From Granulicella sp. (GTDB lineage: Bacteria > Acidobacteriota > Terriglobia > Terriglobales > Acidobacteriaceae), in contig DAHXNO010000172.1 in NCBI GenBank assembly GCA_027365345.1, positions 1 through 63,462 on the forward strand: 63,462 bases of DNA, in the 5' to 3' direction. The position numbers and the translations under genes were made by a program. Below are positions 36,304 through 61,920 of this stretch, one piece after another. The stretch's first letter is position 1. Every line of letters begins with the position of its first letter. Below the pieces are notes generated by a model, which saw nothing but the letters and a program-made list of their open reading frames with translations, made no database searches and had not been told where the DNA came from.

Positions 36304-36642
36304 ATGGCTATGAGTGTGAACCCCATTCCAAACCAGCAGCTCACGCGCTTCCGCATCGCCCTGCTTGCCGCCATAGCAGCCGACCTTCTGCAGTTCCTCT
36401 TTCTCCCTCTGCTGGTGGAAGGAGCCGATTCCCCGCCCGACGACGTCATCGATCTGGCCGTCGGCGCTCTGATGATCTACCTGCTGGGCTTTCACTGGGA
36501 GTTCCTTCCCTCCTTTGCGGCCAAGCTGGTGCCGGGGGTCGATCTGGCCCCTTTGTGGACCCTGTCGGTAGCCAACGTCTACCGCAAGACCAAGCGTCTG
36601 GCCGCCAGCCAGGCGCAGGACCAGGGCTCCATGGAGTCCTGA
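36304..36642 (+). CDS. Small membrane protein, unknown function
   Basis: 112 residues (110 if the second ATG at 36310 is used; GGAG at 7 bases favours that one). There are two hydrophobic segments, FRIALLAAIAADLLQFLFLP and AVGALMIYLLGFHWEFLPSF, separated by an acidic loop (EGADSPPDDVIDL), then a cytoplasmic basic tail. I do not recognise a named family. It lies 130 bases after the MocR gene on the same strand and could be part of its regulon. Confidence 0.6.
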   Translation: MAMSVNPIPNQQLTRFRIALLAAIAADLLQFLFLPLLVEGADSPPDDVIDLAVGALMIYLLGFHWEFLPSFAAKLVPGVDLAPLWTLSVANVYRKTKRLAASQAQDQGSMES

Positions 36643-36828
36643 CGGTGCCTCGCCGGACCCCTTGATGGAGTCCTGAGGTAACCCTGCCGGCCCGCTTAAA
36701 AAACTCCCGGCGCAACCGCGCCTCTGTTGGCCTCCACGGCGGCACACGCTTCTCAGGCAGCGCGGCATCCCTCCCTCGGCCGGGCGTGGCGAAAAGCAAT
36801 CGCCAACAGGAAGCTTAAATATAGATCC

Positions 36829-38054: not shown

Positions 38055-38246
38055 TCGGTAGTCATCGCCTCAGGCGGGTTGGGGCCCGGAGCAAACCTCG
38101 CCGCATCCCCACCGCCCGGAACTCCAGACAGACCCACTCCCCAACGCGCCCAACGTCACGCGCGCTCCCGGCCATCCAACGGACCACTCCGTCCGCACCC
38201 AGCGCCGGCCCAGGCGCCAGCCTCGCCCGTCCGGCAGCGCCATCCA

Positions 38247-38358
38247 GAGCATTTTCCCCGTTGATGGGTGTCCAAAAGCGATTGTGCAGTGGCGTTTTCA
38301 TTGGGGAAAACGCCCATACCTCTCAATCTGCTGGACTACACCTACGGGGAAAATGCTC
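38247..38358 (+). repeat. 112-bp nested-hairpin repeat, copy A (forward)
   Basis: This copy defines the element. Perfect 15-base terminal arms GAGCATTTTCCCCGT (38247-38261) and ACGGGGAAAATGCTC (38344-38358) enclose an inner perfect hairpin GGCGTTTTC (38291-38299) with GAAAACGCC (38306-38314). It sits 42 bases past the rmlD stop. Copy B at the far end of the rml operon is in the opposite orientation. Confidence 0.9.
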
Positions 38359-38400
38359 CAGCCCAAAGCAGATCGCGCCGACGCAGCCCACAGCTACATC

Positions 38401-42150: not shown

Positions 42151-42297
42151 TCCCTATTGCCGTTGAGCTTCCCCACGGTGCGGAAGCTCGTCCCAGCGAG
42201 GATACCATAGGCCCGGCCGTGCCCCCGCTGGAGTGAATCGGCTCGGGGCACACGAGACAAAGATGGAAACCCGCGGAAATCCGAAGAAAAGCGGCTA

Positions 42298-42411
42298 GAG
42301 AATATTTCCCGTAGGTGTAGTCCGGCAGATTGAGAGGTATGGGCGTTTCCCCCAATGAAAACACCCCTGTACTATCGCTTTTGGATACCCATCAACGGGG
42401 AAGATGCTCTC
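42298..42411 (-). repeat. 112-bp nested-hairpin repeat, copy B (reverse)
   Basis: This copy is opposite to copy A. Arms GAGAATATTTCCCGT and ACGGGGAAGATGCTC retain most pairing. The inner hairpin (GGCGTTTCC against GAAAACACC) is the most degraded of the six. It sits between the rmlB leader and the TumE promoter. Confidence 0.85.
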
Positions 42412-42628
42412 AACCTGGGCCCACCGCTGCTCCAGACAGGAACGCTCGCATTGCGAAAGCGCGATCCCGTCGCAGGCCGGCCCGCCGTGCAAAAGCAGCG
42501 GCAATTTGCACCGGCCCGACGCGAATCATCCCAAGGGCGCATAGGGGACGCGGCAGCGGGCTCTTACGCGGGCCGCTGGGCACCCCGCCGAGCGACCGCC
42601 TCGCGACTGAGCGCCGACTTCGCGGCAT

Positions 42629-42674
42629 GTTGGAGTATTTGACAACATCTGCCCTTGTTGGTATAAACTCCAAC
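42629..42674 (+). promoter_or_regulatory. Promoter and likely operator of tumE-tumA
   Basis: TTGACA (42639-42644) and TATAAA (42662-42667) are separated by 17 bases, a near-consensus sigma-70 promoter. The expected start of transcription falls at about 42674, next to the ATG at 42675, so the message may be leaderless. A perfect 8-base inverted repeat GTTGGAGT (42629-42636) and ACTCCAAC (42667-42674) brackets the promoter, as expected for autoregulation by the HTH antitoxin. Confidence 0.7.
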
Positions 42675-42962
42675 ATGGACGCCGACCTGCTGTTTCGAAA
42701 GCGCCTTGGGCTGTCAGAGACGGCGTTCGTCGAAATGGTGATTTGGCGGGTGCCAAAACCCATGCACGGCAGCGCGCACAGGTTTAAGTACCGCCTGGCT
42801 CTGGTGACGGCAGGCGTCTGTGTGCTTCGCTATGACAACGAAGCCGGTAAGGGCGACCACAAGCACGTTGGGGAACGCGAGGCGGCCTATCACTTCGTTG
42901 ACCTGGACAGGCTACAAACTGATTTTTGGCAAGACGTTGAGAACTGGAGCAAAAAACAATGA
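42675..42962 (+). CDS. tumE: TumE-family toxin (DUF6516)
   Basis: 95 residues beginning MDADLLFRKRLGLSETAFVE, with HRFKYRLALVTAGVCVLRYDN and GKGDHKHVGE. These match my memory of the TumE/DUF6516 toxin family, small proteins paired with a downstream helix-turn-helix antitoxin. The stop overlaps the next start (ATGA). The start at 42675 is set by the near-consensus promoter ending right before it; a longer upstream frame crosses repeat copy B and is spurious. The mode of toxicity is not visible from the sequence. Confidence 0.8.
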   Translation: MDADLLFRKRLGLSETAFVEMVIWRVPKPMHGSAHRFKYRLALVTAGVCVLRYDNEAGKGDHKHVGEREAAYHFVDLDRLQTDFWQDVENWSKKQ

Positions 42963-43303
42963 GAACCGTAACGCTGGGAGTCTCCTCAACCCTGGACACA
43001 CAAAAACAACTGGGCGCCGCCTTTCGTGGCGAGTGTGCTGGGGAGTTCCTCAGCTTTGCCACAGTGGAACTGCTATGGAAGGTGCTCACAGCCAAGCGCT
43101 GGGAGATCCTGCAAGCAATGACCGGGGAAGGCGAGATGACCATCCGCGAGATTGCCCGCCGGATTGGCCGCGACGTGAAGGCCGTGCATGGCGACGTGCA
43201 GGCTCTCCTTCTGGCCGGCGTGCTGGATCGCGCCGACACCGGACGCGTCGTCTTTCCTTACGACGCCGTCCGCGTCGACTTCACGTTGCACAAAGCTGCC
43301 TGA
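42959..43303 (+). CDS. tumA: TumA-family antitoxin (HTH, HVO_A0114-like)
   Basis: 114 residues. The C-terminal half is a winged helix-turn-helix (KRWEILQAMTGEGEMTIREI followed by ARRIGRDVKAVHGDVQALL). This is the HVO_A0114-type DNA-binding domain that accompanies TumE toxins. It overlaps TumE by four bases. It should neutralise TumE and repress the operon through the inverted repeat at 42629-42674 (inferred). Confidence 0.82.
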   Translation: MRTVTLGVSSTLDTQKQLGAAFRGECAGEFLSFATVELLWKVLTAKRWEILQAMTGEGEMTIREIARRIGRDVKAVHGDVQALLLAGVLDRADTGRVVFPYDAVRVDFTLHKAA

Positions 43304-43391
43304 CCCACCTCCATGTCACGCACGTCCTCTGCCCTCACGCTGCGTGCGGCCAACGCCTGCCTCGCGCACGGCGCAGATCACTACGGGGCGC

Positions 43392-43503
43392 GAGCATTTT
43401 TCCCGTAGGTGCAGCCCGGCAGATTGAGATGGATGGGCATTTTCCCCAATGAAAATGCCACTGCAACATCGCTTTTGGATACCCGTCGACGGGGAAGATG
43501 CTC
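43392..43503 (-). repeat. 112-bp nested-hairpin repeat, copy C (reverse)
   Basis: Arms GAGCATTTTTCCCGT and ACGGGGAAGATGCTC. The inner hairpin here is GGCATTTTC (43436-43444) with GAAAATGCC (43451-43459). Relative to copy A both sides have changed together (G:C to A:T) and the stem remains perfect. With copy B, in the same orientation, it brackets tumE-tumA. Confidence 0.9.
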
Positions 43504-43550
43504 TCGACTGCCCTTCACTTGCTCCCGACGGCAGTTCTCGCTGCCGGCTG

Positions 43551-43596
43551 CTGTTTCCTCTGGCTGATGGCTCCTGTTTCCTCTGGCTGATGGCTC
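43551..43596. repeat. Exact 23-bp tandem duplication
   Basis: CTGTTTCCTCTGGCTGATGG plus CTC is repeated head to tail (43551-43573, 43574-43596) directly beyond the stop of the TPR gene at 43600. The exact identity points to a recent duplication. Confidence 0.8.
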
Positions 43597-44696: not shown

Positions 44697-44790
44697 AGCT
44701 ACAAAAATCAGCTACAGAAGTCAGAGAGAGATACCTACAGCAGCCGGCTACCGAATCAGCTACAGAAGCCGGCGAGAGAAACCAGCTCCG
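44697..44790. repeat. Degenerate short repeats upstream of the TPR gene
   Basis: Loose copies of a motif of about 16 bases, AATCAGCTACAGAAG, are spread with variants (AAGTCAGAGAGAG, AATCAGCTACAGAAGCC, GGCGAGAGAAACCAG) over about 95 bases. They lie 50-150 bases before the start of the minus-strand gene, as in the rml leaders. Confidence 0.5.
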
Positions 44791-49276: not shown

Positions 49277-50407
49277 ATGACTAATTCGCGCGCAGCCGTC
49301 CGGTCAATCGCCGTTAATGGCAGATTCCTCTCCCAGCCGGTTACCGGCGTGCAGCGGTATGCATTCGAGCTGCTCAACGCGCTCGACTCCCTGTTAGATG
49401 CCGGGTCCATAGAACCGGTGCCCCTCACTGTTCTCGTCCCCCCGGACGCCGTAAATCTCCCCCAATGGCCCTCCATCAGAATCCAGCGGGTTGGGCGGTT
49501 CACCGGACAGCTTTGGGAACAGCTTGATCTGCCCATACATGCGCACGGAACTCTCTTGTTCACCCCCTGCGGCGGCGCTCCCATCGTACATCGGCCGCAC
49601 GTCATCACTATCCACGACGCAGGTGTGTTCAGCACTCCCACCGCCTACACCGTTGCCTACAGAAATTACTACAAGGCCCTCCAGCGGGTTCTTAGCGCCA
49701 CGGCAAGCCATATCCTTACAGTATCTGAATTCTCCAGACGCGAGCTCATCGCTGCGCTGCACCTTCCCGCCGCCAAGATCACGGCTATCCCCCTTTCGGG
49801 GGAGCACATCCTCCGCTGTAGGCCAGATGAGGGGGTCTTGCCCCGGAATGGCCTCCGCCCGGGCCGGTATATCGTCGGCGTAGGCTCGCGCAATCCAAAC
49901 AAGAACCTCAAAGGGCTCATCGACGCCGCAGCCTTTTTCCCACCCTCCTCGCTTGAACTCGTTGTCGCCGGTGGAGGGAACCGCAGCATTTTCTCAGACG
50001 AACAAATCGCCTCAGCGAGGGTAAGAAGCCTCGGCTTCGTAAACGACAATGAGTTGCGGGCCCTCTATGAGAATGCCGCGTGTTTCGCATTTCCCTCATT
50101 TTACGAGGGATTTGGGCTGCCTCCGCTGGAGGCGTTGACCCTGGGCTGCCCCGTGGTGGTTTCAAACGCGGCATCTCTGCCCGAAATCTTCGGAGAGGCC
50201 GCCGCCTATTGTGACCCCCATTCGCCCGAGGATATCGCTCGCCAGATACAAAGAGCATGCGAGGGAGGGAATGCCGACCGGGAACGACGCTACGCGCGGG
50301 CGTCCTCGTTCACCTGGAATGCCTGCGCCAGGGAAACGTGGTCCATCTTCGAGCGAATAATACGCGATCCACAACGGCGTCGCCGAAGGGGCAACCCAGC
50401 CTTTTAG
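49277..50407 (+). CDS. GT4 family glycosyltransferase
   Basis: 376 residues. The N-terminus has VNGRFLSQPVTGVQRYAFEL and ITIHDAGVFSTPTAYTVAY. The donor domain shows VGVGSRNPNKNLKGLID and the E-x7-E segment in FPSFYEGFGLPPLEALTLG. It resembles mannosyl- and rhamnosyltransferases of O-antigen clusters (WbaZ-like). The TAG stop (50405-50407) is shared with the first base of repeat copy D. The acceptor is unknown. Confidence 0.88.
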   Translation: MTNSRAAVRSIAVNGRFLSQPVTGVQRYAFELLNALDSLLDAGSIEPVPLTVLVPPDAVNLPQWPSIRIQRVGRFTGQLWEQLDLPIHAHGTLLFTPCGGAPIVHRPHVITIHDAGVFSTPTAYTVAYRNYYKALQRVLSATASHILTVSEFSRRELIAALHLPAAKITAIPLSGEHILRCRPDEGVLPRNGLRPGRYIVGVGSRNPNKNLKGLIDAAAFFPPSSLELVVAGGGNRSIFSDEQIASARVRSLGFVNDNELRALYENAACFAFPSFYEGFGLPPLEALTLGCPVVVSNAASLPEIFGEAAAYCDPHSPEDIARQIQRACEGGNADRERRYARASSFTWNACARETWSIFERIIRDPQRRRRRGNPAF

Positions 50408-50518
50408 AGCATTTATCCCGTAGGTGTAGCCCAGCGGATTGAGATTGATGGGCGTTTTCCCCAATGAAAACGCCACTGCACAATCGCCTTTGGATACCCG
50501 TGAACGGGGAAAATGCTC
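50407..50518 (-). repeat. 112-bp nested-hairpin repeat, copy D (reverse)
   Basis: Arms GAGCATTTATCCCGT and ACGGGGAAAATGCTC with a perfect inner hairpin (GGCGTTTTC, GAAAACGCC). It begins on the stop codon of the GT4 gene. TA occurs on both sides (TTTTA before, TAAG after), possibly a 2-bp target duplication, though other copies do not show it. Confidence 0.9.
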
Positions 50519-50833
50519 TAAGAATTGACGCAAGAAGCATGCACCCCCTCCGAGCCAAGACCGTAACGTGGCAACGTGTCCTCAAGCCGCTGGCCTCCGA
50601 CACCGGACTCTGGCCCGGCGCCCCCCATATGGAGTTGAGGAAGAAGGGCCAGCAGCCCGAGAAGCCCCCGCTCCGAGTCCCGCTGGAGGCCGCATCGTCG
50701 GAGAAGCCCCCTCCTCCGTGTTAAGGTTCACCAAGCCGCGCTGGCCGGGGGCTCCACGTCGGCACCTCGCTGGGGCATCGCGGGCGAGGCGCGGGAGGTG
50801 GATGGAATGTCAGAGCGCGGCTCGCGCAATGCC
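50519..50833. other. Intergenic, no gene recognised
   Basis: 315 bases between copy D and the stop of the next gene (convergent). Composition is GC-rich with Pro/Arg-type frames only. A few short inverted runs (GGAGAAGCCCC region) are too weak to name. Confidence 0.4.
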
Positions 50834-59919: not shown

Positions 59920-60196
59920 AGAAAAGAACCTCTCAAGCAGGCGGTGGCGCAACCGGCAGTTCTTCTTGCCTGCATGCTGCGGCTCGCCGGCCCCTGTGCC
60001 GAGCGCCGTGCCGAGCACCGCCTTTCCAAAGTCAGTCTACCCGCTCGGCCCGCATCTACCCGCTCGCCCGGCATCTGCCCCGCCACCATTTTGCTCGCAC
60101 CATTTCGCCCGCACTCAGTCGCTCCAGAATCGCTTTGCTTATCGCCCCTTCCGCCGAGCGTCGCGCTCCAGGAAAAAATCCAACAGCCGATTGCCG

Positions 60197-60308
60197 GGGC
60201 ATTTTCCCCATTGATGGGTATCCAAAAGCGATTGTGCCGTGGCGTCTTCATTGGGGAAAGCGCCCATACCTCTCAATCTGCAGGGCTACACCTACGGGGA
60301 AAATGCTT
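60197..60308 (+). repeat. 112-bp nested-hairpin repeat, copy E (forward)
   Basis: Arms GGGCATTTTCCCCAT and ACGGGGAAAATGCTT; the substitutions at the tip are G-T pairs, so pairing in RNA would persist. The inner hairpin has two changes (GGCGTCTTC, GAAAGCGCC). It is forward, opposite to copy F, and the two flank the AAA ATPase gene. Confidence 0.9.
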
Positions 60309-60353
60309 AGCCGGAATACGTCCGTGGCGTATCCTAAGCCGTTATACCGACCC

Positions 60354-60452: not shown

Positions 60453-61589
60453 ATGAATAATCCCTTTGAATATGGCGCCGCCGTCTCCGGTTCGGCTTTC
60501 TGTAACCGCACCACGGAAACCGCCGATCTCATGAGCGCCATCCATAATTCGCAGCGCGCCTTCCTTTATTCGGAGCGCATGATGGGCAAAACCTCGCTCG
60601 TGCGCCGCGTGCTGGCGGGCCTGGACCCTGAAAAATATGTGGCTGTCTACATTGACCTGTGGGCGACCGACGACGAGGCATCCTTTATCACCACCACCGC
60701 GAGAGAGATCTCTCAGGCGATGGGCTCCGATGCGAGTCGTGTCCTAGAGGTCGCGAAGCGGCTCTTTTCGCGTTTTTCCCCGAAGGTCTCGCTGGATGAC
60801 AACGGCATTCCGAAGGTCAGCTTCGAATACAACCCTACGGCCGAGCAGGCGCGCCAGAGCCTTGAAGAAGTCCTCGCGGCGCCCCAGCGTATGGCTACCG
60901 AATCCGGGAAGAAGGTTGCGATCGTCTTCGATGAGTTGCAACGCATCCTGGAGTACGGGGACGACCATGTCGAACGTTTGCTGCGCAGCATCATCCAGAT
61001 GCAGCGCAACGTCTCCTACATCTTCCTCGGAAGCCGGAAGCATCTTCTTCAGGATATGTTTCTCAATCGCAAACGGCCGCTTTACAGCGCGGCGGATCAC
61101 TTCCCGCTCGGGCCGATCAAAGTCGAACACTGGCTGCCCTTCATCCAGCAGAAGTTCGAAACGACGGGCCGGCAGATCAGCAAGCAGGTGACGGAGCAGA
61201 TCTGCCTGCTCACCCAAGGGCACCCGTTCTACACCCAGCACCTCTGCCATGCAATCTGGGAGAAACTGGCGGCGGGGGAAGAGGCCACGGAACTGGACAT
61301 CCAGCGGGGTTTGCAGGTTCTGCTGGCTCGGGAGACCGGCGCGTATTCCACGCTGTGGGAATCGCTTACCGTCAACCAGCGCAGGTTTCTGTACGGGCTT
61401 GCCGTTGAGGACCACCCTGTCTCCCTGTACAGCCGTGCCTTCGTGCAGAAGTACAGGCTAGGCAATCCCTCAGCAATTCAGCGCCTGAGCGGCGCGCTAC
61501 TCAAGCGCGACGTGATCGACCGGGATGCGCGCTCGTTTGTTATCTCCGATCGCTTCTTCCGTCTTTGGATACGCGAACGAGAGGACTAG
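60453..61589 (+). CDS. Archaeal-type AAA ATPase with C-terminal winged helix
   Basis: 378 residues. It starts NPFEYGAAVSGSAFCNRTTE, the usual opening of this ATPase_2 group. Walker A is a variant, SERMMGKTSLV with GKT at 45-47. Walker B is VAIVFDELQ (D160, E161), followed by FLGSRKHLL (sensor-1 region). The C-terminus (SAIQRLSGALLKRDVIDRDA ... ISDRFFRLWI) is a winged helix as in archaeal ATPases. Relatives act as signalling ATPases or accompany toxin-like partners; none is adjacent. The gene has its own promoter, stands alone and is flanked by inverted repeat copies E and F. Its stop lies on the first bases of copy F. Confidence 0.85.
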   Translation: MNNPFEYGAAVSGSAFCNRTTETADLMSAIHNSQRAFLYSERMMGKTSLVRRVLAGLDPEKYVAVYIDLWATDDEASFITTTAREISQAMGSDASRVLEVAKRLFSRFSPKVSLDDNGIPKVSFEYNPTAEQARQSLEEVLAAPQRMATESGKKVAIVFDELQRILEYGDDHVERLLRSIIQMQRNVSYIFLGSRKHLLQDMFLNRKRPLYSAADHFPLGPIKVEHWLPFIQQKFETTGRQISKQVTEQICLLTQGHPFYTQHLCHAIWEKLAAGEEATELDIQRGLQVLLARETGAYSTLWESLTVNQRRFLYGLAVEDHPVSLYSRAFVQKYRLGNPSAIQRLSGALLKRDVIDRDARSFVISDRFFRLWIRERED

Positions 61590-61697
61590 CATTTTTCCCG
61601 TAGGCGTAGTCCAGCAGATTGAGAGGTATGGGCGTTTTCCCCGATGAAAACGCCACTGCACAATCGCTTTTGAATACCCATCCACGGGAAAATGCGC
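61587..61697 (-). repeat. 112-bp nested-hairpin repeat, copy F (reverse)
   Basis: Arms TAGCATTTTTCCCGT and ACGGGAAAATGCGC with a perfect inner hairpin (GGCGTTTTC, GAAAACGCC) and one base shorter than the others. The TAG at its left edge is the stop codon of the AAA ATPase. It is reverse, mirroring copy E. Confidence 0.9.
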
Positions 61698-61920
61698 TGG
61701 ATGCCTCGCGTCGGCAATGGTATCAGGCTCCGAACGATCTTTGCGATTCGCTTGAGGGACGGGTGTGCGGCGTGTCGTCTCCGCTGCAGGGCTCGCCCTT
61801 CGGGTCGTTCCTGAGAGTCAGCTTGCGAGGCGGTGAACTTCGCGCCCCTGGTCTCCCAAGCCAGGATTTCCAGAGGCTGTCGAATGGCCTTGTCCATCAT
61901 CTTGTGAATAATGCAGGTGT

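Follow-up and report, generated by a model that had tools for sequence, protein, structure and literature searches.

A dispersed palindromic repeat of Granulicella keeps its arms and inner hairpin paired across lineages and is probably an IS630-type MITE

The outer arms and the inner hairpin of a short dispersed repeat of Granulicella and related Acidobacteriaceae keep their pairing by matched changes across lineages. The copy that drew attention to this repeat, copy C (43390–43505, +), lies in the window, the whole stretch of 63,462 nt of Granulicella DNA analysed here, and we give a probability of about 0.58 to its being a degenerating copy of a non-autonomous MITE of the IS630 type, which would be mobilised by a transposase and would need a fold of its DNA for this step. 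The pairing most likely matters for mobilisation, as DNA, and the inner hairpin may take part in it. The paired base change of copy C alone carries no evidential weight.

Copy C belongs to a dispersed, imperfectly palindromic repeat and spans 116 bases together with its flanking dinucleotides. These are degenerate (GC and TC instead of TA), and the R1 model matched the copy at 43389–43504 with 112.7 bits. Its left outer arm GAGCATTTTTCCCGT (43392–43406, +), an IS630-like terminal inverted repeat (TIR), faces the right outer arm ACGGGGAAGATGCTC (43489–43503, +), and the inner hairpin between them consists of the 5′ stem side GGCATTTTC (43436–43444, +), the loop CCCAAT (43445–43450, +) and the 3′ stem side GAAAATGCC (43451–43459, +). 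Copies A, D and F read GGCGTTTTC/GAAAACGCC in the stem; relative to the other copies, copy C has G to A on the 5′ side and C to T on the 3′ side, and the sequence of this G:C to A:T exchange is as the earlier note had described it. A typical copy starts with TA, the 15-base outer arm GAGCATTTTCCCCGT and a middle part with GGTGTAG, continues with the inner hairpin (GGCGTTTTC, loop CCCAAT, GAAAACGCC) and, after another middle part, closes with the right arm ACGGGGAAAATGCTC and TA.

Six core matches were found in the window, where 0.38 were expected. Copy A (38246–38361, −; 129.8 bits) is the best paired of them, with a fold z of −8.0 under DNA parameters; folding was also scored for copies D (50405–50520, +; z −5.3) and F (about 61585–61699, +; z −4.7, with the loop CCCGAT), copy C (z −2.7) and copy B (42296–42411, +; z −0.82). 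Inner pairs are broken in two of the six: the stem of copy B, GGCGTTTCC/GAAAACACC, has two C.A cells, and the damaged stem of copy E (about 60196–60311, −, between divergent ORFs), GGCGCTTTC/GAAGACGCC, has one C.A and one T.G. In the right arm of copy E a C-to-T change makes a G-T pair, in agreement with the G-T pairing previously reported for its terminal arms.

The repeat is abundant in its own genome (4.2 Mb in 208 contigs), which gave 33 BLAST matches, 30 of them full-length, as well as weaker, more divergent matches to the model. With a length of 114–116 bp, no coding capacity, many copies and paired terminal arms, it has the features of an IS630-derived MITE. A covariance model built from 30 copies and used for the genome searches detected the element in 22 of 28 same-genus genomes and BLAST in 17 of the 28, while none of 33 genomes outside the genus had a BLAST match. 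Order-wide, it was present in 31 of 120 genomes and in 10 of 38 genera. A scan of species genomes yielded at least 80 stretches; 79 of those listed are titled Acidobacteria, Acidobacteriales, Acidobacteriaceae (the family to which Granulicella belongs), Granulicella, Terriglobus or Bryocella, and one listed stretch is titled Pseudomonadota, perhaps through misbinning. Named isolates with the element are Granulicella mallensis, Terriglobus albidus and Bryocella elongata. The copy numbers from the genome searches, which draw on up to 150 matches per search, are lower bounds for the richest, under-sampled genomes, and alignment A3 takes in 150 of the 181 matches of one copy collection. We found no description of this repeat in open-licence papers.

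Sequence comparison shows that the ends of the element, a probable MITE of 114–116 bp, resemble those of IS630-family transposons of the same genus in sequence, place and polarity. At 9 of 22 tested PF13358 loci, from six genomes of the genus, a similar end follows the domain match at a nearly constant distance of about 103–115 bases; five of these nine ends score at least 10 against the element end profile, and the other four score low and rest on their place. Two complete transposons of about 1.03 kb (L280 in genome G014 and L281 in genome G012) have TA and these repeats at both ends, and their transposase is made up of two overlapping reading frames, the second of which is above the NF033545 (IS630 family) cut-off in both transposons, with the first frame of L281 matching below it. 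The left end (...GTGTAG) differs from the right end (...GTTACTGTGG) in the short element just as it does in the transposons. Six IS630 ends shared a median of 14–16 of 27 positions with 372 element ends, compared with 8–9 for 2005 other.TAGA sites. The best single matches, such as the 23 of 27 identical positions between the right end of L281 and an element right end of G009, overlap chance (20–23 of 27 for element ends, 18–21 for unrelated.TAGA sites); several IS630 ends agree with their best element end at 20–21 of 27 positions, which hardly exceeds, if at all, the 19–21 reached by the best unrelated.TAGA site.

The own genome had no intact transposase of this IS630 subgroup, only two weak PF13358 fragments, and the copy-rich genomes G002, G009, G023 and G027 had no PF13358 match at E ≤ 0.001. 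The lack of an intact transposase in the own genome and of such a match in several copy-rich genomes speaks against the IS630-type explanation. Three other possibilities were considered. A tyrosine transposase (RAYT/TIRYT) origin, suggested by PMC3733652, was rejected: 50 fetched Y1 loci, a part of all Y1 genes found, contained 4 arm-like matches against 10 in reversed sequence, and 30 Y1 loci gave no R1 match. Acidobacteria are reported to have tyrosine transposases (excerpt of PMC3733652), and in keeping with this 26 of the 28 same-genus genomes have matches to Y1 (RAYT-like) transposases. An IS5/DUF4096 parent, suggested by a short IS5-type ORF next to a partial copy at C37, did not prove general; three strong arm matches, all right ends, lay in loci with short IS5-type ORFs (L348, L352 and L349), and the family was absent at E ≤ 1e-5 from 14 of 28 genomes, including G002, G009 and G027. 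Element right ends share loci with IS5-family (DUF4096) ORFs in three genomes (L074, 3297–3810, on G000:C37 of the own genome; L349; L352), the ORF of the own genome measuring only 94 aa. In 1.35 Mb of loci and window, a search for long autonomous versions bracketed by the element's ends found 12 cases of two similar ends separated by more than 200 bases, none of which was such a version: 11 were the ends of two separate short copies, with some entries repeating one place, and the remaining pair, L114, is an unrelated short repeat.

The ends were resolved for 125 of 268 copies, 110 of them distinct, and TA flanks both ends in 57 of these 110, consistent with duplication of a TA target. A filled copy, L158, aligns without gaps to an empty relative, L115, when one TA is counted, with 23 of 32 flanking bases identical, although L115 is diverged and reads CA, not TA, at the site. 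The possibility that L115 is an IS66 fragment was dropped, as Pfam gave no match. A second candidate for an empty site, L374 compared with L222, was not counted because a residue of 8–9 bases is present. This residue (about 3052–3059 of L374, in genome G022, related to the G009 that has the element at L222, 852–967) is like the right tip and is perhaps the footprint of an imprecise excision.

Among 240 copies with distinct flanks, 234 lie between ORF calls, which were made by a codon-usage heuristic instead of a gene finder, four partly overlap a call and two lie inside one. For the 199 copies with both neighbours, the genes are convergent in 88 cases, tandem in the same sense as the element in 60, tandem in the opposite sense in 38 and divergent in 13. 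A stop codon coincides with at least one end in 92 of these 199 copies and with both ends in 10, while the background over stop codons is 51 of 231 for non-coding CTAG and 308 of 5205 for non-coding TA. Where frames of at least 120 codons run into the element end, the TA starts a codon in 44 of 57 cases (a third expected, P = 1.5e-11), and the far TA, analysed at the 151 of 480 ends that were resolved, is followed by A or G in 43 of those 44 in-frame cases, compared with 39% for all TA. At ends without a frame of 60 codons running in, the far TA is likewise mostly followed by A or G (51 of 59); hence the case for stop codons rests on the reading frame, and the A or G is partly a matter of target taste. 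The element thus appears to have entered TAA or TAG stop codons, with its own first G remaking TAG. Both window copies D and F are such cases: the first TAG of copy D is the stop codon of a glycosyltransferase ORF (49277–50407), and the TAG at 61587–61589 of copy F is that of an ATPase ORF (60453–61589).

The double change of copy C does not exceed chance. Over the nine inner pairs of the 30 full-length own-genome copies there was one compensated double, against a mean of 0.44 when the 3′ letters were exchanged among the copies (P = 0.38, at least one double arising in 38% of the shuffles), and over the outer arms there were two, against 1.26 (P = 0.37); 18 inner cells of the same copies are non-Watson-Crick (6 G-U, 11 A-C, 1 other). 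For copy C taken alone, we therefore lean slightly towards two independent transitions in a decaying copy, as 0.44 such events are expected per 30 copies and the copy is otherwise degraded, with both flanking TA gone and the fold z of only −2.7. Two points speak against chance hits: the compensation is complete, and another genome has an A:T pair at the same place (GTATTTTC/GAAAATGC, L070). A CpG hot-spot as the origin of the change was not favoured on inspection by eye.

The evidence for kept pairing comes from a larger alignment. A first set of 268 copies, 237 of them distinct, was aligned with MAFFT without structure (mean identity 65%) and a tree was built; copies outside about 95–125 bases and reverse-strand matches of the palindrome were dropped before counting. 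By parsimony we counted the branches where the two partners change together and one Watson-Crick pair replaces another, and compared the counts with a null in which the tree and the changes in each column were held fixed in number (300 runs). The collection leans to paired copies, having been gathered in part with a model that takes structure into account and with a pattern in which the loop and the inner stem's outer GG/CC are fixed. In it, the 14 pairs of the outer arms showed 62.8 compensated doubles against 4.81 (sd 2.35, maximum 13) and the nine pairs of the inner hairpin 10.0 against 1.51 (sd 1.20, maximum 7). Sliding the partners by −4 to +2 columns reduced the counts from 62.0 to 1.0–7.5 in the outer arms and from 11.2 to 0–5 in the inner hairpin. 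A second set of 46 distinct copies (37 from other genera of the family and 9 from the same-genus genome G002, none identical to the first set) is a second sample instead of an independent lineage, G002 and G140 being already in the first set; it gave 10.9 doubles against 0.89 in the outer arms (maximum 4, 400 runs) and, in weak agreement, 1.7 against 0.22 in the inner hairpin (P = 0.02).

When all column pairs were scored by a G-test with APC against the tree null, five structural pairs ranked top, E being below 0.05 for two outer pairs only and 0.117 for the best inner pair. Covarying pairs beyond a phylogenetic null, as sought in structured RNAs, are thus present in outer arms and inner hairpin by the count of independent events, with pairwise significance confined to the two outer pairs. 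The earlier note had named covariation in a larger alignment as the check on its proposal that folding matters to the element; the proposal holds for the kept pairing in that alignment, to the extent just given, and copy C fails as its proof (P = 0.38).

Matched changes were also visible by eye in the inner stems of subfamilies (GCTGTTTTT/AAAAACAGC, GTCGTTTTT/AAAAACGAC, GTGGTTTTC/GAAAACCAC and GGCACTTTTC/GAAAAGTGCC) and in their outer arms (for example GAGCAGTTCCCGTAT/ATACGGGAACTGCTC). The TTT/AAA core of the inner stem is nearly invariant, and the inner loop is conserved and asymmetric. A constant pairing scheme was sought in the middle of the element as well and discarded, no column pairing standing out there. 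The doubles are distributed unevenly over the tree. In the outer arms they number 37.4 against about 30 one-sided changes on internal branches and 24.6 against about 238 on terminal branches; the corresponding figures for the inner hairpin are 7.2 against 24 and 4.0 against 84. Relative to one-sided changes, doubles are thus commoner on internal than on terminal branches, suggesting selection on the copies that move and decay after landing.

The reading that we prefer combines these observations with the ends and the insertion sites. An IS630-type transposase would cut both ends of the element and insert it into TA, with a preference for CTAG and for the TA inside TAA or TAG stop codons, and the element's first G would rebuild a TAG stop, leaving the host gene unharmed. 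The covariation of the outer arms can be explained without a fold, since both ends would have to be recognised by a single transposase. More is needed to account for the inner hairpin, which does not form an end, has a conserved and asymmetric loop and varies in its stem by matched changes; it may be kept because a DNA fold, cruciform or single-stranded hairpin, is needed during mobilisation and could join the ends of so short an element (about 115 bp). Resident copies such as copy C would decay without repair after landing, and the A:T pair that replaces G:C in copy C may have arisen by two chance hits. We know of no property of IS630 transposition that requires an internal hairpin.

An alternative, which we consider unlikely, is that transcribed copies fold and affect the stability, termination or processing of neighbouring mRNAs, so that selection on RNA keeps the stems. 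Strong single-strand folds of some copies (A, D and F, with z of −8.0, −5.3 and −4.7 under DNA parameters) would fit it, as would the position at the 3′ ends of genes, a same-strand gene lying upstream in 148 of 199 copies, and the orientation bias in tandem gene pairs (60 against 38, P = 0.033). The bias extends to stop codons, which coincide with the ends for 66 of 148 upstream and 36 of 126 downstream genes (P = 0.004 for the raw 66 against 36). On terminal branches G-U is mildly commoner than A-C in the outer arms (81 against 56, P = 0.04), and in copies co-directional with both neighbours inner G-U outnumber A-C by 24 to 12, though these copies are more decayed overall. The one-sided changes of the inner stem speak against this alternative, G-U and A-C being equally frequent (terminal branches, 30.6 against 31.4; internal branches, 10.0 against 6.4), and so does the decay of the stems, of which 9.6% of the cells are non-Watson-Crick in copies co-directional with both neighbours against 3.4% in the reverse class (P = 0.007, confounded by relatedness). 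If resident copies acted as RNA, G-U would be expected to be tolerated better than A-C and co-directional copies to be better preserved, and the inner stem on the whole shows neither. Rfam 15, whose structured RNA families likewise comprise hairpins with covariation, gave no match at the gathering threshold in the window and none at E ≤ 1 over copy C, and in the one place scanned the sole terminator-like site (43529–43546) lies 24 bases beyond copy C, not inside it. Resident copies hence give no clear sign of acting as RNA. The choice between folding in RNA and folding as a single-stranded DNA hairpin, left open when the change in copy C was first pointed out, is half answered: the outer arms are explicable as TIRs, and the inner hairpin lacks a clear RNA signature.

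It is similarly improbable that template switching or gene conversion copied mutations from one arm of a quasi-palindrome into the other and so produced the matched changes without any selection for folding; gene conversion had been named at the outset as what might explain copy C. Long imperfect palindromes are a sequence class with known arm-to-arm correction; the element is one, and compensations occur in both its helices. Internal branches may also give slow correction by template switching the time to act, a point that weakens the reading in terms of mobility. On the other hand, mismatches persist in resident copies: on terminal branches about 238 outer changes are one-sided and 24.6 are doubles, and 84 inner changes are one-sided and 4.0 are doubles, so that arm correction is not efficient. 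Correction between arms also sits poorly with the middle of the element, which has no consistent column pairing, and with the inner-hairpin loop, which is conserved and not symmetric. Least probable of all is an inner stem that forms no hairpin and is bound as a double-stranded palindrome by a dimer of the transposase or of a host factor: a two-fold site would also be expected to show symmetric double changes and the TTT/AAA core hardly varies, but the pairs beside the core take several Watson-Crick types (G-C 161, C-G 40 and T-A 16 of 236 at the variable pair, columns 49–70) and the conserved loop is not symmetric.

Set beside known systems, the element comes nearest in kind to RUP of Streptococcus pneumoniae, a 107-bp repeat with ends like those of IS630-Spn1 (excerpt of PMC3049150). 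The two are alike in size, IS630-like ends, high copy number and a tight fold that pairs the terminal repeats, and they differ in that the hosts are unrelated and the base composition is another; the excerpted text of PMC3049150 contains neither a covarying inner hairpin with a conserved loop nor a stop-codon preference for RUP. The covarying inner hairpin and the stop-codon habit appear novel among IS630-type MITEs. ERIC, Correia/NEMIS and Nezha are small palindromic elements with inverted-repeat ends. They and other bacterial MITEs, which are among those listed in an excerpt of PMC3733652, resemble the element in these respects, live in different hosts and were compared by description only. 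Compensatory hairpin changes are reported to be common in REPINs, which belong to tyrosine transposases (excerpt of PMC3116915), GTAG REP ends are said to provide TAG stop codons often, and TIR-flanked tyrosine transposases have been reported in G. mallensis and other Acidobacteria (both from excerpts of PMC3733652). On these partial accounts, REPIN, RAYT and TIRYT elements share with ours palindromic mobile DNA, hairpin formation, compensatory changes and the supply of TAG, whereas the ends of our element are of the DDE type beside TA and no local REP hairpin was seen in its arms. Hairpin-forming MITEs have been compared with Correia elements, and TATA ends are described as common in MITEs (excerpt of PMC4853749); the main text of the MITE review PMC10969869 does not contain the terms stop codon, IS630, hairpin or compensatory.

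What had been one suggestive base pair has become a tested pattern with a testable mechanism, in a large family with many compensated subfamilies that is present in named isolates and whose insertion into stop codons would be an example of nearly harmless integration. More tentatively, and on balance doubtfully, the family may represent a class of IS630-type MITEs in which a folded inner hairpin, in addition to the terminal repeats, is required, co-evolves and is used as DNA in transposition, and which insert into stop codons and rebuild them; if so, copies could spread at gene ends at little cost. Tyrosine-transposase elements are usually regarded as needing an internal fold, and DDE-type MITEs are not.

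Several features of the neighbourhoods are worth recording. Copies B and C, both on the + strand (42296–43505), bracket a two-gene unit at about 42630–43303 encoding a TumE-type toxin (PF20126) and an HVO_A0114/HTH partner (PF25212), likely a toxin-antitoxin pair, and copies E (−) and F (+) bracket a single ORF for a 378-aa ATPase (PF01637; 60196–61699). Pairs of copies 1.0–1.6 kb apart also occur in L043, L085, L124, L132 and L220, an arrangement that might allow composite movement. Beyond copy C, the terminator-like stem-loop at 43529–43546 is followed by a perfect tandem pair of 23-base units (43551–43596). Elsewhere in the window, a head-to-tail pair of 34-base direct repeats, 74% alike, is located at 36631–36698, and a pair of 30-base direct repeats, 48 bases apart and 87% alike, at 44706–44783.
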